Assembly (NCBI RefSeq): GCF_012767755.2
Contig: NZ_AP023189.1
Span: 5,892,001 to 5,956,000, forward strand
Reading direction: 5' to 3'
DNA from: Pseudomonas tohonis
GTDB lineage: Bacteria; Pseudomonadota; Gammaproteobacteria; Pseudomonadales; Pseudomonadaceae
Length of the DNA: 64,000 nucleotides
In this document: positions 47,576 through 64,000 of the stretch, in pieces
How positions within the stretch are numbered: the stretch's first letter is position 1
How the letters are laid out: every line of letters begins with the position of its first letter
Program-made: the position numbers and the translations under genes
Notes under the pieces: generated by a model
The model's database searches: none
What the model was told of the DNA's origin: nothing
What the model saw: the letters and a program-made list of their open reading frames with translations, nothing else

Positions 47576-47690
47576 CAGCTGCAAGCTGCAAGCTGCAAGC
47601 TGCAAGCTGCAAGCTGCAAGCTGCAAGCTGCAAAACGATGCTGACCCGCTCTTTCTTGCGGCTTGAAGCTTGGTGCTTGAGGCTGCAGCC
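47576..47690. repeat. Heptad-arm hairpin element 4 with seven perfect CAAGCTG units (urtD/urtE junction)
   Basis: CAGCTG at 47576-47581 is followed by seven exact copies of CAAGCTG (47582-47630) and a partial eighth. The facing arm (47655-47690) has diverged units (CTTGCGG, CTTGAAG, CTTGGTG, CTTGAGG, CTGCAGC). The perfect tract implies recent copy-number change. The element ends just before the urtE ribosome-binding site. Confidence 0.9.
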
Positions 47691-56934: not shown

Positions 56935-57204
56935 CTATTTCTTCTTCAGGCACTCGCTGAGGAAGGCCTTGCGTTCGTCGCCCTTGAGCGCCTTCTCGCT
57001 GGCGGTCTTGTTGCAGCTGATCATCTTCTCCTGCTGGGTCGCCTTGAGGCAGTTGCTCATGAAGGTCTTGCGCGCATCGCCCTTGAGTTCCTGGGCGGTG
57101 GCCTCGGCGTTGCAGCTCTTCATCTTTTCCTGCTGGGTGGCGGCGAAACCCTGGCTGGCGGCCAGCATCGCGAGCAGGAGCAAGGGCAGGCGGATCGACT
57201 TCAT
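56935..57204 (-). CDS. psiF: PsiF repeat protein
   Basis: 89 residues from the ATG at 57204. A signal peptide (1-21, A-x-A cleavage after 'GFA') precedes two copies of the PsiF repeat: 'QQEKMKSCNAEATAQELKGD' and 'QQEKMISCNKTASEKALKGD', each followed by R-K-x-F-x-x-C-L. Two cysteines per repeat could form disulfides in the periplasm. The name comes from phosphate-starvation-inducible psiF of E. coli; I see no Pho box here, so regulation may differ. Confidence 0.93.
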   Translation of the reverse strand: MKSIRLPLLLLAMLAASQGFAATQQEKMKSCNAEATAQELKGDARKTFMSNCLKATQQEKMISCNKTASEKALKGDERKAFLSECLKKK

Positions 57205-57353
57205 GGGGCGGTCTCCCGGGGTGTCCGTATGGGGGTGACGGGGGCGTCGCCTGGAGTCTAGCCACTGCGACGAACTGCGCCTCGCCGCCTGAGCAAAGCG
57301 CGCCCGGCTCGCGTACACTGCGCGGCCGTTTTTTCCACCGGACCTCTCGCGCC

Positions 57354-59866: not shown

Positions 59867-59989
59867 ACGGCCCCCGCCACAGATTTCCTAAACTTTTCCC
59901 GCTTCGTATCACTCACATTCCAGGTAGGGCCGCGACGCCAATGGCCGCCAGAGCCAGGCACCAGGCCCGATTAGCCAAGGAGAAACGTG

Positions 59990-60523
59990 ATGAGTGACGT
60001 GCAACTTACCGATGTGAACACCCTGCGCCAGCGCGCCCGGCAAAACGTGCTGGACGGCGCCGTGACCGAGGGCTACCACGCAGACCGCCCCACCGTGCTG
60101 CGCCTGCTCAACGAAGCGCTGGCCACCGAGCTGGTCTGCTACCTGCGCTACAAGCGCCACTACTACATGGCCAATGGCCTGAAGGCGAGCATCGCCGCCA
60201 GCGAGTTCCTCGAGCACGCCCAGCAGGAACAGCAGCACGCCGACCGCCTGGCCGAGCGCATCGTGCAACTGGGCGGCGAGCCGGACTTCAACCCGGCCGG
60301 CCTGGAGGCCCGCTCCCACGCCCAGTACGTGGCCGGCAAGGACCTGCGCGAGATGGTCACCGAGGACCTGATCGCCGAGCGCATCGCCATCGACAGCTAC
60401 CGCGAGATCATCCAGTTCCTCGGCGACAAGGACCCGACCGCGCGCCGCCTGTTCGAGGAAATCCTCGAGCAGGAGGAAGAGCACGCCGACGACATGGCCG
60501 ACATCCTCGCCGACCTGAAGTAA
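59990..60523 (+). CDS. Bacterioferritin-like / ferritin-like domain protein
   Basis: 177 residues from the ATG at 59990 with AAGGAG ahead. Four-helix ferritin fold with diiron ligands E-x-x-H in both halves: 'NEALATELVCYLRYKRH' with 'FLEHAQQEQQHAD', and 'EDLIAERIAIDSYRE' with 'EILEQEEEHADDM'. It resembles the PA4880 'probable bacterioferritin' rather than BfrA/BfrB: no haem-ligand Met at the usual place is evident. Roles could be iron storage or DNA protection. Preceded by the OsmE pair, followed by a REP palindrome. Confidence 0.92.
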   Translation: MSDVQLTDVNTLRQRARQNVLDGAVTEGYHADRPTVLRLLNEALATELVCYLRYKRHYYMANGLKASIAASEFLEHAQQEQQHADRLAERIVQLGGEPDFNPAGLEARSHAQYVAGKDLREMVTEDLIAERIAIDSYREIIQFLGDKDPTARRLFEEILEQEEEHADDMADILADLK

Positions 60524-60687: not shown

Positions 60688-62751
60688 TCAGTTGGCCTTG
60701 CGCATCTTCTCCAGCAGCGGCGCGCAGGTGTTGGTGACGTCCCCACCACCGCTGGGGGCGACCAGTGCCAGCAGCCCGGCGGCGGGTGCCACCACGGCGC
60801 CGAGCACCACCATGCCGGCACCCCGGGCGATCAATGGCACCGCCTTGACCCCGGCGTCCGGCTTCTTGAAGGTGCCGCGCACGTAGAGCGGCGAACGCAG
60901 GGAGAAGATGCGCACGCCCTTGGACTCCGGGGTGACGGTCAGGTCCAGGCGCTCGCTGGCCAGGTTGGCCGAACCGTCGACCTGGATCAGCGCGTTCTCG
61001 GTATCGAAGATGAACACCCGTGGCGTCACCAGGCCCTTGGCCAGCTTGAGGTCGGCAGCGGCGCAGTTGATCTTCACCTCGTCGTCGCCGAACAGCTTGC
61101 CGACCAGGTAGTTGCCGACGTTGAGTCCGGCGATCTCCATCAATCCGCGGCTCACCGCGCCGTCGTTGACCAGCAGCTTGAGGTCGCCGTTGGCCGTCCC
61201 CAGCAGAGCCGCCACCGAGTTGCCGGTGCCGGCCAGGTCGGCGTCGCCGTTCAGCTCGCCGAAACTGGTGCGCATCGGCTCGAAGGTAGGAAACAGCTGC
61301 TTGAGCTTGAAGTGCCGCGCGCTGAGGCGGGCGCGGCCCTGCAGGGGCACGCTGCCGCCGTCCAGGTGGATGGTGGAGTCCAGGGTGCCGCCGGCCATGC
61401 CGAAGCGCAGGGGCTCCAGGCTCAGCTTGCCGTCGTCGAGTACCACGTGGGTGTCGAGGTCGTTGAAGGGCAGCTTGTCACTGTGGACGATGCGCTTGCC
61501 GGTGAAGCGCACGTCGGCATCCATCTGCCGCCAGCGCTCGGTGCGAAACGCCTCCACCGGCAGCACCTTGTCCGCCGGCTGCTTGCCGGCCACGCCGCGC
61601 TCCTTTTTCTCGGCGTTCGAGTCGGCGCCGATCAACGGCGCGAGGTCGGCGAAACGCAGCTGGTTGGAGGTCAGCGCGCCGGACAGCTTGGGCCGGGGCG
61701 GGTGGGCGACGTAGTGCAGGTCGCCATGGATGTCGCTGTCGCCAATGGCACCGTTGAAGCCCTGGTAATGGAACTGCGGGCCCGCCGGGTCCTGCAGCTG
61801 CGCCACCAGGCGGCCGTCGGTGGAATAGGCCGGCGTGTCGGGCAGGGTCACACCGGTCAAGGGGTAGAGGTTGCCCAGGCTGTCGCCGGCCAGCTTCAGC
61901 CGCAGGTCCAGGGCGCCCAGGTGGGTCGGGTCGGTGAGGGTGCCGGCCAGGGCGATGCGCGTGGCGCCGATGCGCAGGTCGGCCTGCAGGGGAAACGGCT
62001 TGCGCGCATCCTTCAGGGCCAGCAGCCCGCCGATCTTGCCGCTGCCGTCCAGCGCCTGGCCCTTGTAGCTGCCCTTGGCCGTCCAGCCGAAGGCGTAATC
62101 CTGGGGCGCATCGCCCTGCTCCGCCACCTTGCCGGCGGCCTTCTCGCCAACGATGTCACTGAACGGGATCGGCTTGCCCAGCGGGTCCACCAGCAGTTCC
62201 AGGCGCGTCTGCGAGGGCTGGTCGTCGACCTTCACCTGGCCCTTGTCGAAGCCGATGGCGCCGATGTCCAGGGTCCAGGCGGAAGGCTCCTCGTCAGCCT
62301 GCTCCGGGGAGCTGGCGAGCGTGTCGAAAGTCCAGTTGTCGCGGCCGTCGGCGCGGCGCCTGAGATCGGCGCGGGGCTCGGTGAGATCGATGCGCGGAAT
62401 GGCCACGGTCTTCCACAGCAGCGGCAGCGGCGACAGGCTCGCCTCCACGCGCCTGAGGGTGACGAACGGCTGCTTCCCGGCCCACTCGGGATTGCCCAGG
62501 GTCAGGTCCTCGGCCGTCACATGGGGCCAGGGCACCCAGGCACGCAGGCCGGGTTCCGAGGGCTCGCGCTGCCAGCGCACACTGAGGTCGCCGTTGATGG
62601 CGAAGGGGCGACCCAGGGTTTCCGAGACCCGGGCATTGAGGGTCGGCTTGATGCGGTTCCAGTCGAACGTGGCGACGAACACCACCAGGGCGGCCAACAG
62701 CAGCACCAGGCTGGCGGTGGTCCAGGCGAGGATTCTGCGTCCGCGCGTCAT
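60688..62751 (-). CDS. AsmA-family protein
   Basis: 687 residues. One N-terminal membrane anchor (~8-30) followed by the AsmA signature start 'FDWNRIKPTLNARVSETLGRPFAI', a long beta-rich periplasmic body, and a C-terminal conserved domain with 'GGTLDSTIHLDGGSVPL', 'NGDADLAGTGNSVAALLG' and 'LIQVDGSANLASERLDLTV'. AsmA-like proteins form bridge-like lipid channels from the inner membrane toward the outer membrane and affect lipid balance. Single gene, convergent with the ferritin-like gene and divergent from the repeat-protein gene. Confidence 0.94.
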   Translation of the reverse strand: MTRGRRILAWTTASLVLLLAALVVFVATFDWNRIKPTLNARVSETLGRPFAINGDLSVRWQREPSEPGLRAWVPWPHVTAEDLTLGNPEWAGKQPFVTLRRVEASLSPLPLLWKTVAIPRIDLTEPRADLRRRADGRDNWTFDTLASSPEQADEEPSAWTLDIGAIGFDKGQVKVDDQPSQTRLELLVDPLGKPIPFSDIVGEKAAGKVAEQGDAPQDYAFGWTAKGSYKGQALDGSGKIGGLLALKDARKPFPLQADLRIGATRIALAGTLTDPTHLGALDLRLKLAGDSLGNLYPLTGVTLPDTPAYSTDGRLVAQLQDPAGPQFHYQGFNGAIGDSDIHGDLHYVAHPPRPKLSGALTSNQLRFADLAPLIGADSNAEKKERGVAGKQPADKVLPVEAFRTERWRQMDADVRFTGKRIVHSDKLPFNDLDTHVVLDDGKLSLEPLRFGMAGGTLDSTIHLDGGSVPLQGRARLSARHFKLKQLFPTFEPMRTSFGELNGDADLAGTGNSVAALLGTANGDLKLLVNDGAVSRGLMEIAGLNVGNYLVGKLFGDDEVKINCAAADLKLAKGLVTPRVFIFDTENALIQVDGSANLASERLDLTVTPESKGVRIFSLRSPLYVRGTFKKPDAGVKAVPLIARGAGMVVLGAVVAPAAGLLALVAPSGGGDVTNTCAPLLEKMRKAN

Positions 62752-63018
62752 GCACTTCTCCTAACTCTAGCGGTGCCTTGCCCCAAGACCACCAGGGGCT
62801 GCACACGAGGCGTCTTGTTCTATCGACTGGCAAACGGGACGGATGACTCCGGCAAATGCAGCGCAAAAATCATCACCGCGCGCAGCCTATACCGCCCGCG
62901 ACACCGGCAGAAAGGCCTGGATGGGTAGGTAAGCACCTGATCCAAAACAGGTTTTCCAATCATCATCGGCATCGATGCCGACTATCGCGAGTGATCACTT
63001 TTTAATCGCCTGGCCGTC
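62752..63018. other. Divergent spacer between AsmA and repeat-protein genes
   Basis: With the leader block at 63019-63073 this makes a 322-base gap. It has no coding frame of its own and is less GC-rich toward 62940-63005 ('TTTTTAATCG' at 63001-63010), where a promoter for the repeat protein could lie. ATCGATGCCGACTAT at 62971-62985 resembles ATCGATGCTTACTAT at 63832-63846, upstream of the paralogue, at nearly the same distance. Confidence 0.5.
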
Positions 63019-63045
63019 CGTAACATGGGCCCCGTAGCCACTTGC
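63019..63045 (+). promoter_or_regulatory. Conserved leader block, copy 1
   Basis: Core CCGTAACATNGGCYCCGTAG plus YCACTT. It begins 55 bases before the ATG of the repeat protein. Copy 2 at 63878-63904 begins 55 bases before the next ATG. Only three bases differ between copies over the 27, while the sequences around them have diverged more. Confidence 0.75.
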
Positions 63046-63073: not shown

Positions 63074-63595
63074 ATGAAAACCCAAGCCATCGCCACCCTG
63101 TTCCTCACCGGCCTGTTCGCCATCCCGGTCGTCCAATCCGCCGTTTCCTATCCGCTGGTCGCCGAGGGCGAAGGTGCCTACATGGTCATCGACCGTGTCG
63201 CCGAAGGCGGAGCCGAGCGCACCCTGAACCGCGTTGCCGAAGGCGGTGCCGATCGCACCCCGGGCTTCCGCGTTGCCGAAGGCGGTGCCGACCGCACTCC
63301 GGGCTTCCGTGTCGCCGAAGGCGGTGCCGATCGCACCCCGGGCTTCCGTGTCGCCGAAGGCGGTGCCGACCGCACCCCGGGCTTCCGTGTCGCCGAAGGC
63401 GGTGCCGACCGCACCCCCGGTTTCCGTGTTGCCGAAGGCGGTGCCGACCGTACTCCCGGTTTCCGTGTCGCCGAAGGCGGTGCCGATCGCACCCTGGGCT
63501 TCCGCGTCGCCGAAGGCGGTGCCGATCGCACCCCGGGCTTCCGTGTCGCCGAAGGTGGTTCCGACCGTTTGCTGCAAGCCCACGGTGTGGTCTGA
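63074..63595 (+). CDS. Secreted 13-residue tandem-repeat protein (RVAEGGADRTPGF)
   Basis: 173 residues with AGGAGA ahead of the ATG. A Sec signal peptide (1-22, 'PVVQSA') is followed by 18 linker residues and ten consecutive units of consensus RVAEGGADRTPGF: the first is 12 long (AERTLN), the next eight are 13 long (one has TLGF), and the last degenerates to RVAEGGSDRLL before a short 'QAHGVV' end. No cysteine, no lipobox, no sortase or outer-membrane anchor. Repeats differ mainly at synonymous sites, which points to selection on the protein. I recall similar 'VAEGGxDR' proteins in other Pseudomonas, some labelled phage infection protein, without proof of function. A terminator follows. Confidence 0.88.
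   Translation: MKTQAIATLFLTGLFAIPVVQSAVSYPLVAEGEGAYMVIDRVAEGGAERTLNRVAEGGADRTPGFRVAEGGADRTPGFRVAEGGADRTPGFRVAEGGADRTPGFRVAEGGADRTPGFRVAEGGADRTPGFRVAEGGADRTLGFRVAEGGADRTPGFRVAEGGSDRLLQAHGVV
63194..63592 (+). repeat. 39-nt coding tandem repeat array
   Basis: Ten units: 36 bases, then eight of 39 bases (63230-63541), then a diverged last one. Units differ at third positions (GTT/GTC, GAC/GAT, ACC/ACT). Because 39 is a multiple of three, other frames and the opposite strand are also open across the array; those frames are by-products. Confidence 0.95.
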
Positions 63596-63621
63596 ATCCA
63601 CACCGGCTTCACCCAGTAGTC

Positions 63622-63647
63622 AAAGCCCGGCACCGGCCGGGCTTTTT
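63622..63647 (+). terminator. Rho-independent terminator of the repeat-protein gene
   Basis: 10-bp stem AAAGCCCGGC/GCCGGGCTTT with a 4-base loop followed by TT, A, TT; 26 bases past the stop. The rest of the gap to 63877 holds no gene I can support. Confidence 0.9.
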
Positions 63648-63877
63648 ATTGCCCGCCACGCCATGCCGCCCAGGCAGCACGCCACGCCCTGGCGCCTGCG
63701 AGATCACTCCGGCAACCGCTCATCACGCCCATCGATGCAGAGCAGGAAAGGCCCTCTGCAGCCCGGCGAGCAAGGCCTGAAATGTCCACCAAACCATTGA
63801 TTCACAAGGCTAAAGGCAACCATTAAAGAGATCGATGCTTACTATTGGCCGCCTTCACTTCTGGCCTTTCCGGGTGC

Positions 63878-63904
63878 TCCGTAACATTGGCTCCGTAGTC
63901 ACTT
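63878..63904 (+). promoter_or_regulatory. Conserved leader block, copy 2
   Basis: Same block as at 63019-63045, again beginning exactly 55 bases before a start codon. It shows that the gene beginning at 63933 is controlled like its neighbour. Confidence 0.75.
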
Positions 63905-63932
63905 ACCAGCCCCCCACGAGGAGCCACAGATC

Positions 63933-64000
63933 ATGAAAGCCCATGCCATTGCCGCCCTGTTCCTGACCAGCCTTTCCGCCACCGCCTTTGCCCTGCCCTC
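63933..64000 (+). CDS. Start of a probable paralogue of the repeat protein (truncated by window end)
   Basis: The ATG at 63933 has GAGGAG about 10 bases ahead. Only 22 codons are visible: M-K-A-H-A-I-A-A-L-F-L-T-S-L then an A-rich stretch ending in 'AFALP', a Sec signal peptide. The first 14 residues match the neighbour at most positions (MKTQAIATLFLTGL), and the upstream block is shared. Whether the rest also carries VAEGGADR repeats cannot be seen. Confidence 0.75.
   Translation, partial: MKAHAIAALFLTSLSATAFALP

Follow-up and report, generated by a model that had tools for sequence, protein, structure and literature searches.

An exported 13-residue repeat protein family of Pseudomonas tohonis, probably under MexT control and possibly made as a stress shield

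What an exported protein built from short tandem repeats does, and when it is made, is the question raised by this locus. The stretch analyzed here (the window, 64,000 nucleotides of the Pseudomonas tohonis genome) carries one such gene in full and the start of another, and a third lies elsewhere in the same genome; these are referred to as genes 1, 2, and 3. We lean towards the explanation that all three are members of a family of exported repeat proteins that is controlled by MexT and made as a stress shield. The part concerning family membership and regulation by MexT is highly probable, as judged from the sequences, and the envelope-shielding mechanism, taken alone, is tentative and lies on the doubtful side. 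The two genes of the window are laid out as follows:

63074..63595, + strand: gene 1, exported repeat protein of 173 aa, from the ORF translation
63193..63567, + strand: 39-bp tandem array encoding the 13-residue units (Tandem Repeats Finder, 9.7 copies, score 554)
63623..63649, + strand: G+C-rich hairpin and then a T run, 3′ of gene 1, resembling an intrinsic terminator as read from the sequence
63933..64000 in the window, continuing to G000:C1:5956340, + strand: gene 2, 135 aa with seven motif copies, translated past the window edge

The product of gene 1 has a signal-peptide-like start (about residues 1–22 by eye, signal peptides having been judged by eye and with a hydropathy rule), a short lead, and then ten copies of AEGG(A/S)(D/E)R, which bears out the sequence-only reading of an exported repeat protein. 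The ten units counted in that reading hold for the motif, but only eight are full 13-residue units, the others being one 12-aa variant and a divergent last copy. Seven of the full units are identical (RVAEGGADRTPGF), and one has L for P. The array, with a period of 39, is the strongest detected in the window by Tandem Repeats Finder, the runner-up scoring 114. The eight full units give a pS of 0.288, a pN of 0.009, and a dN/dS of 0.025, and dN/dS is 0.016–0.098 in seven further arrays, which come from this genome and from two named relatives; pairs of units from one array lack independence, yet the ratio points clearly one way. From this comparison of units it seems clear that the protein unit is conserved while its coding DNA drifts, in line with the protein-level constraint previously read from synonymous variation around fixed residues, and a ratio near 1 did not occur. 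The counterpart of gene 1 in the nearest named genome (labeled Pseudomonas alcaligenes MRY13-0052) is 92% identical and has E in all seven full units at the place where the units of the window have D; this uniform D versus E is a sign that units may be homogenized within each genome. The pattern seen between L016 4001–4519 (seven full units, all E) and window 63074–63595 (eight, all D) is one of concerted evolution.

Gene 2 starts 337 bases past the gene 1 stop and has its own signal-peptide-like start. Following the sequence beyond position 64000, as had been suggested, completed gene 2, and the search for further copies gave gene 3, which encodes 174 aa with ten motif copies at ∼3.6975 Mb of the same genome, 2.3 Mb away. 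The second gene had already been taken for a tandem paralogue, and past the window edge it does read into seven repeat copies and not just a signal peptide.

A profile search, with a query (A1) built from ten segments, each two to three units long, found the 13-mer in all 18 genomes searched from the window's genus and in 37 of the 119 genomes of the family, the genome of the window being included in both counts. Matches in a class-wide draw of 370 genomes were confined to the window's own genome. In a large protein set, 315 relatives were found at E ≤ 0.001 among 8000 candidates scored, and in the 120 of these that were listed, those with names are mostly labeled Pseudomonas or its split-off genera. 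The earlier statement that similar proteins exist in Pseudomonas proved sound, as the profile finds relatives with the same unit across the genus. Copy number differs, with at least six repeat loci among the matches listed for genome G003 compared with three genes in the genome of the window. On these comparisons, the gene family is real, constrained, and lineage-specific, and the presence of so strongly constrained and multiplied a family in all 18 genomes searched from the genus, together with the box and neighborhood described below, suggests that its product matters well beyond P. aeruginosa. A text search of the literature for VAEGGADR and AEGGSDR did not find either string in any paper.

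Evidence as to when these genes are expressed comes from their upstream regions, which share one block, the first part of which fits the MexT nod box. A putative MexT-type box lies 87–90 bp before the ATG of all three repeat genes in this genome, and the promoter elements within the window are:

62962..62985, + strand: MexT-type LysR box (ATCA-N5-RTCGAT-N4-ACYAT) with 0 mismatches, 88 bp before the gene 1 ATG
63021..63026, + strand: TAACAT, likely −10 element of gene 1, in a conserved CCGTAACATNGGCNCCGTA block (31-promoter consensus)
63822..63845, + strand: MexT-type box of gene 2 with 1 mismatch, 87 bp before the gene 2 ATG
63882..63887, + strand: TAACAT, likely −10 element of gene 2 (sequence and 31-promoter consensus)

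The consensus of the −10 block was drawn from 31 promoters in loci read on the + strand only. The strict form of the MexT box is taken as ATCAN5GTCGATN4ACYAT. A text search of the literature pairing MexT with ATCAN5 found nothing; a shorter MexT consensus, ATYA(N7)YGAT, is given in PMC11432991. With up to one mismatch, the strict pattern occurs at four sites in the 6.83-Mb genome, three of them before the repeat genes, against none for the reversed control, and the fourth (4188867) is, by our reading, not upstream of any gene on its own strand. A looser pattern gave 11 genome sites (control 2), of which three precede the repeat genes, one lies between mexS and mexT, one precedes another zinc alcohol dehydrogenase gene, and the remaining six, including 4188867, have no assignable target. 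Within the window, three sites with up to two mismatches were seen against 0.06 expected from shuffles, the one at 63722 having no evident target.

The box is retained well outside this genome. Promoters were counted for 47 distinct repeat genes (loci L001–L080, both strands, scoring the best match up to 200 bp from the start), and the best match has 0 mismatches in 26, 1 in 15, 2 in 4, 4 in 1, and 6 in 1. A box with up to two mismatches is therefore found in 45 of the 47 genes, as against 5 of 1410 shuffled regions and 1 of 780 same-strand stretches elsewhere in the same loci, statistics that are too optimistic, as a single genus supplies most of the 47 genes and the genomes are related. Good sites lie 80–90 bp from the start (in L064, matches at 54 and 86 are equally good), all six repeat loci listed for G003 have one, and repeat genes from other genera of the family also keep the box (L058–L072). 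Such box-bearing genes offer a clean gene set and promoter for testing.

The two genes of the 47 that lack the box are those of L020 and L023, and at five further loci without it (L021, L022, L024, L025, and L026) the upstream region resembles that of L020. A different conserved upstream block is shared by the box-less repeat genes of L020–L022 and L024–L026, and a second regulator for these genes is possible on the basis of that block. OxyR was weighed as another possible regulator acting at the box and set aside, as the motif agrees with the MexT consensus and turns up again at mexS-mexT and before mexE. A MexT-type box also lies between an acpH-like gene and an ArsR-MFS pair in relatives within the window's genus (L085 and L094) and in the g9 genomes described below, a locus that we assume to resemble that of PA4354. 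PA4354 is among the MexT-dependent genes in PMC12607905.

The genome also encodes MexT. At ∼3.7147 Mb, a zinc alcohol dehydrogenase gene (MexS-like by sequence reading and position) is divergent from a LysR gene whose product hits 6l33, the MexT regulatory domain of known structure, at E 7.9e-119, and a MexT-type site lies between the two. The MexE next to this MexT is 75% identical to the MexE beside MexT in genome G090, a MexF-like gene follows, and an exact ATYA-N7-YGAT box begins 101 bp before the mexE ATG. Gene 3 is ∼17 kb from this mexS-mexT-mexEF locus. Across the family, MexT (E ≤ 1e-90) is present in 81 of 119 genomes, being found in 37 of 37 with 13-mer repeats against 44 of 82 without (Fisher 2e-8), or by genus in 8 of 8 against 5 of 11 (P 0.017), although these P values overstate the strength of the co-occurrence, the genomes being related. 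The statement in the sequence-only reading that no enzyme, anchor, or partner can be seen therefore needs revision in one respect, as a regulatory partner is visible in the box before each of the three copies and the encoded MexT.

Two further features of this genome touch on the regulator. A second LysR gene (G000:C1:3983363-3984259) encodes a protein 69% identical to the genome's own MexT, and similar second copies occur in many relatives. A MexT-type site with 1 mismatch (G000:C1:3709312, − strand; L117) lies ∼100 bp upstream of another zinc-dependent alcohol dehydrogenase gene, the second of its kind and ∼5 kb from mexS, which from this site is a possible further MexT target.

A link to a gene with published expression data is provided by the eight genomes of a genus designated g9, which were taken as P. 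aeruginosa-like and several of which carry the 63-residue PtrA. In seven of the eight, the box precedes the gene of an exported protein whose repeat units have 18 residues (VAENGSSQ(S/T)(V/I)DRLH...), lying 86 bp before the ATG, and in the remaining genome (G053) no such site is in the list of pattern matches. Synteny was compared between one g9 genome (G025) and both the window and L009, with two neighbors of gene 1 serving as markers:

59987..60523, + strand: bacterioferritin-like neighbor (Pfam Ferritin), 81% identical to the G025 gene beside the 18-mer repeat gene
60688..62751, − strand: large neighbor, 66% identical in G025, the product of which is presumably AsmA-like

The order of these two neighbors is swapped in G025 relative to the window. 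G025 otherwise has bacterioferritin, the repeat gene, a second repeat gene, desaturase, oxidoreductase, TetR, ureE, ureF, and ureG, as in the genome of the window, the names from desaturase onwards being provisional; identities are 78% for the desaturase, 62% for the oxidoreductase, 79% for TetR, 81% for ureE, and 92% for ureG. The second g9 copy is 32% identical to gene 1 (E 7e-12). Proteins labeled P. aeruginosa (P0149 and P0150) have three units of ∼23 residues with the same core.

The g9 18-mer repeat gene is probably PA4881, an equation that rests on synteny, the box, and the description of PA4881 as a tandem repeat protein, and not on a locus tag. PA4881 is described as an uncharacterized tandem-repeat protein under MexT control (PMC3557286), for which that paper states, with data not shown there, no raised peroxide sensitivity in a disk test. 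It occupies the first row of the MexT-dependent table in PMC12607905, with a log2 value of −6.5, or ∼90-fold lower expression upon loss of mexT, which places it among the genes that respond most strongly to MexT. In a list of ParS/ParR-activated genes that also holds mexEF-oprN, its values are −10.68 and −9.13 (PMC3848899), and it is reported as up together with other MexT-linked genes in PMC10848761. In the repeat genes described here, as in the PA4881 type, the signal peptide leads into tandem units that have an AExG(S/A)..DR core, the MexT-type box is similarly spaced (86 bp in the g9 loci), and the neighborhood is the same, including the tandem second copy seen in G025. They differ in having units of 13 residues rather than 18 (g9 loci) or ∼23 (labeled P. 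aeruginosa), in that the three proteins of this genome lack Lys and Cys and have hardly any His or Met, and in number, with three genes in this genome and at least six loci in G003, and the sequence identity is low. As far as sequence goes, the window genes form an offshoot of the MexT-controlled PA4881 kind that has diverged and multiplied. What looked like an orphan repeat gene can in this way be tested as a component of a known stress response.

MexT has been tied in the literature to disulfide and nitrosative stress and to hypochlorous-type oxidants. The laboratory strain P. putida KT2440 also carries mexT (PMC7697342). In the explanation that we favor, electrophile, disulfide, or nitrosative stress would activate MexT, which would bind the box 87–90 bp before the start and turn on the repeat genes, and the proteins would then be exported to the periplasm. 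These products are rich in Gly, Arg, and acidic residues and nearly Cys-free, and those of this lineage contain little Lys, Trp, His, Met, or Tyr. Being disordered, they could act as a filler among envelope proteins or as a shield for them, while being spared the stress chemistry themselves. A bolder claim, that unfolded, near-Cys-free periplasmic repeat proteins are a main and much-multiplied output of MexT beside the efflux pump in Pseudomonadaceae, acting as an unreactive envelope cushion under electrophile stress, is unlikely. Were it true, such a cushion would be a class of stress protectant new to our knowledge, in which unit length drifts (13, 18, or ∼23 residues) while the AExG(S/A)..DR core is held.

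Composition agrees with this mechanism in part. The array fold that had been suggested as a check was modeled with AlphaFold and gave no usable model, with no predicted fold, a mean pLDDT of 43.9, and a pTM of 0.12 from 29 sequences, although the low score may merely reflect poor alignment of repeats. On a charge-hydropathy plot, the products of genes 2 and 3 fall on the disordered side together with two g9-type proteins, and that of gene 1 on the folded side, as does the bacterioferritin control; mean Kyte-Doolittle values are −0.43 for gene 1, which has 21% Gly, and −1.04 for gene 3. Beyond residue 25, Cys occurs in 1 of the 47 repeat proteins and Trp in none, and among 107 relatives Cys occurs in 6 and Trp in 1. 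Lys, Met, His, and Tyr each make up 0.3–0.6% of residues and are present in 21, 26, 16, and 13 of the 47, respectively, and the g9-type proteins are also without Cys and Trp, yet have His, Met, and Lys in all seven. The argument from inert residues is therefore weakened, as P. aeruginosa-type and many other members contain Lys, Met, His, or Tyr. Hydrophilins are defined by a Gly content over 6% and a hydrophilicity index over 1. The repeat proteins resemble these and LEA-like protectants in being Gly-rich and charged, with no predicted fold and a stress-type promoter, but gene 1 is less hydrophilic than this limit, so that the two composition limits are not reached together, and no sequence relation to hydrophilins or LEA-like protectants was seen.

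A comparison with PtrA (PA2808) bears on several other readings. Against NCBIfam NF041599 (PtrA, cut-off 31 bits), gene 1 scores 45.8, gene 3 32.6, and gene 2 21.1, scores that are summed over the repeats, with no single stretch of genes 1–3 passing the cut-off alone. Filing gene 1 under PtrA on this score was rejected for that reason. The proteins are alike in being exported and in a common 9–11 residue AEGG(S/A)DR motif, but the PtrA-like proteins of this genome, encoded by three single-motif genes at 2.296–2.326 Mb, carry one copy, immediately behind the signal peptide, whereas the repeat proteins have many copies further in; a single motif directly after the signal peptide is not found in genes 1–3. 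The common core is a lead to a shared envelope partner, as suggested by the motif, and not to membership of PtrA. PtrA itself belongs to a CopR/CzcR-regulated operon with czcE and queF (PMC11195947).

Whether MexT is the regulator can be questioned, as the box might be read, instead of or besides MexT, by another LysR protein, either PA2206-like or the second MexT-like LysR at 3983363, and the triggering stress would then differ. PA2206 binds the PA4881 promoter in a gel shift, with 7.7-fold regulation (PMC3557286), and this genome has its second LysR at 69% identity to MexT. The box, however, recurs between mexS and mexT, with the shorter form at a similar place before mexE, and loss of mexT cuts PA4881 ∼90-fold (log2 −6.5; PMC12607905), which leaves another LysR as the reader improbable. 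What the product does can also be read differently. Either the whole protein or peptides released from it by cleavage at every VA/EGG junction could be a small periplasmic signal with a regulatory role, as proposed for PtrA and for PtrC, which we take to be PA2486. The strong constraint on the unit and the AEGG(S/A)DR core found after the signal peptide of PtrA-like proteins would fit such a role, and PA2486 is also MexT-dependent (PMC12607905). Genes 1 and 2 nevertheless have neither a protease nor a receptor gene immediately next to them, the match to PtrA is a sum of weak pieces, none of which passes alone, and the T3SS-repressor role of PtrA is disputed (PMC7744410), so that signaling has in our estimate a small chance of being correct.

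A periplasmic metal-binding or storage protein, as PtrA has been described for copper, would account for the motif in common with PtrA, which is induced by copper and zinc according to the literature, as well as for the acidic residues in every unit and the bacterioferritin gene nearby; but the 13-mer lacks Cys, His, and Met, the box is of the MexT type, and none of the three single-motif PtrA-like genes (2.30–2.33 Mb) is near a MexT-type site of the strict or looser genome scans, and the chance of this being the function is slim. The extracellular filament, adhesin, or phage receptor decoy raised in the sequence-only reading would suit a signal peptide and length-variable repeats, and some relatives are labeled “phage infection protein” by their sources. 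It drew no support from PADLOC, in which four proteins matched 0 families at E up to 1, or from AlphaFold, and genes 1–3 have no anchor or barrel region outside the repeats and no predicted structure. Matches in PHROGs are to repeat pieces only (best 2.7e-5 for the three proteins of this genome; 2.4e-9 for the g9 protein, with 5.8e-8 for a tail-fiber piece), and we regard this reading as very improbable. No evidence was found behind the “phage infection protein” label carried by several relatives, which is a poor guide to function. A P. fluorescens gene of that name, which may or may not belong to the repeat family, is 32-fold up in fungal co-culture (PMC5557065). Pfam matches (Spt5 CTD and others) were set aside as they look like low-complexity matches on the repeats, though gene 3 passes one cut-off (35.2 against 25.4 bits).

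Two other features of the window were seen. At 47577–47633, a perfect AGCTGCA heptanucleotide array of 8.1 copies lies in the short intergenic region that separates two ABC-transporter ATPase genes, presumably urtD- and urtE-like; the array, which is not a multiple of three, could be varying in length. At 56935–57318, a small exported ORF, which we take to be PsiF-like, has two copies of a unit around CNxxA..K.LKGDxRK.F.S.CLK.
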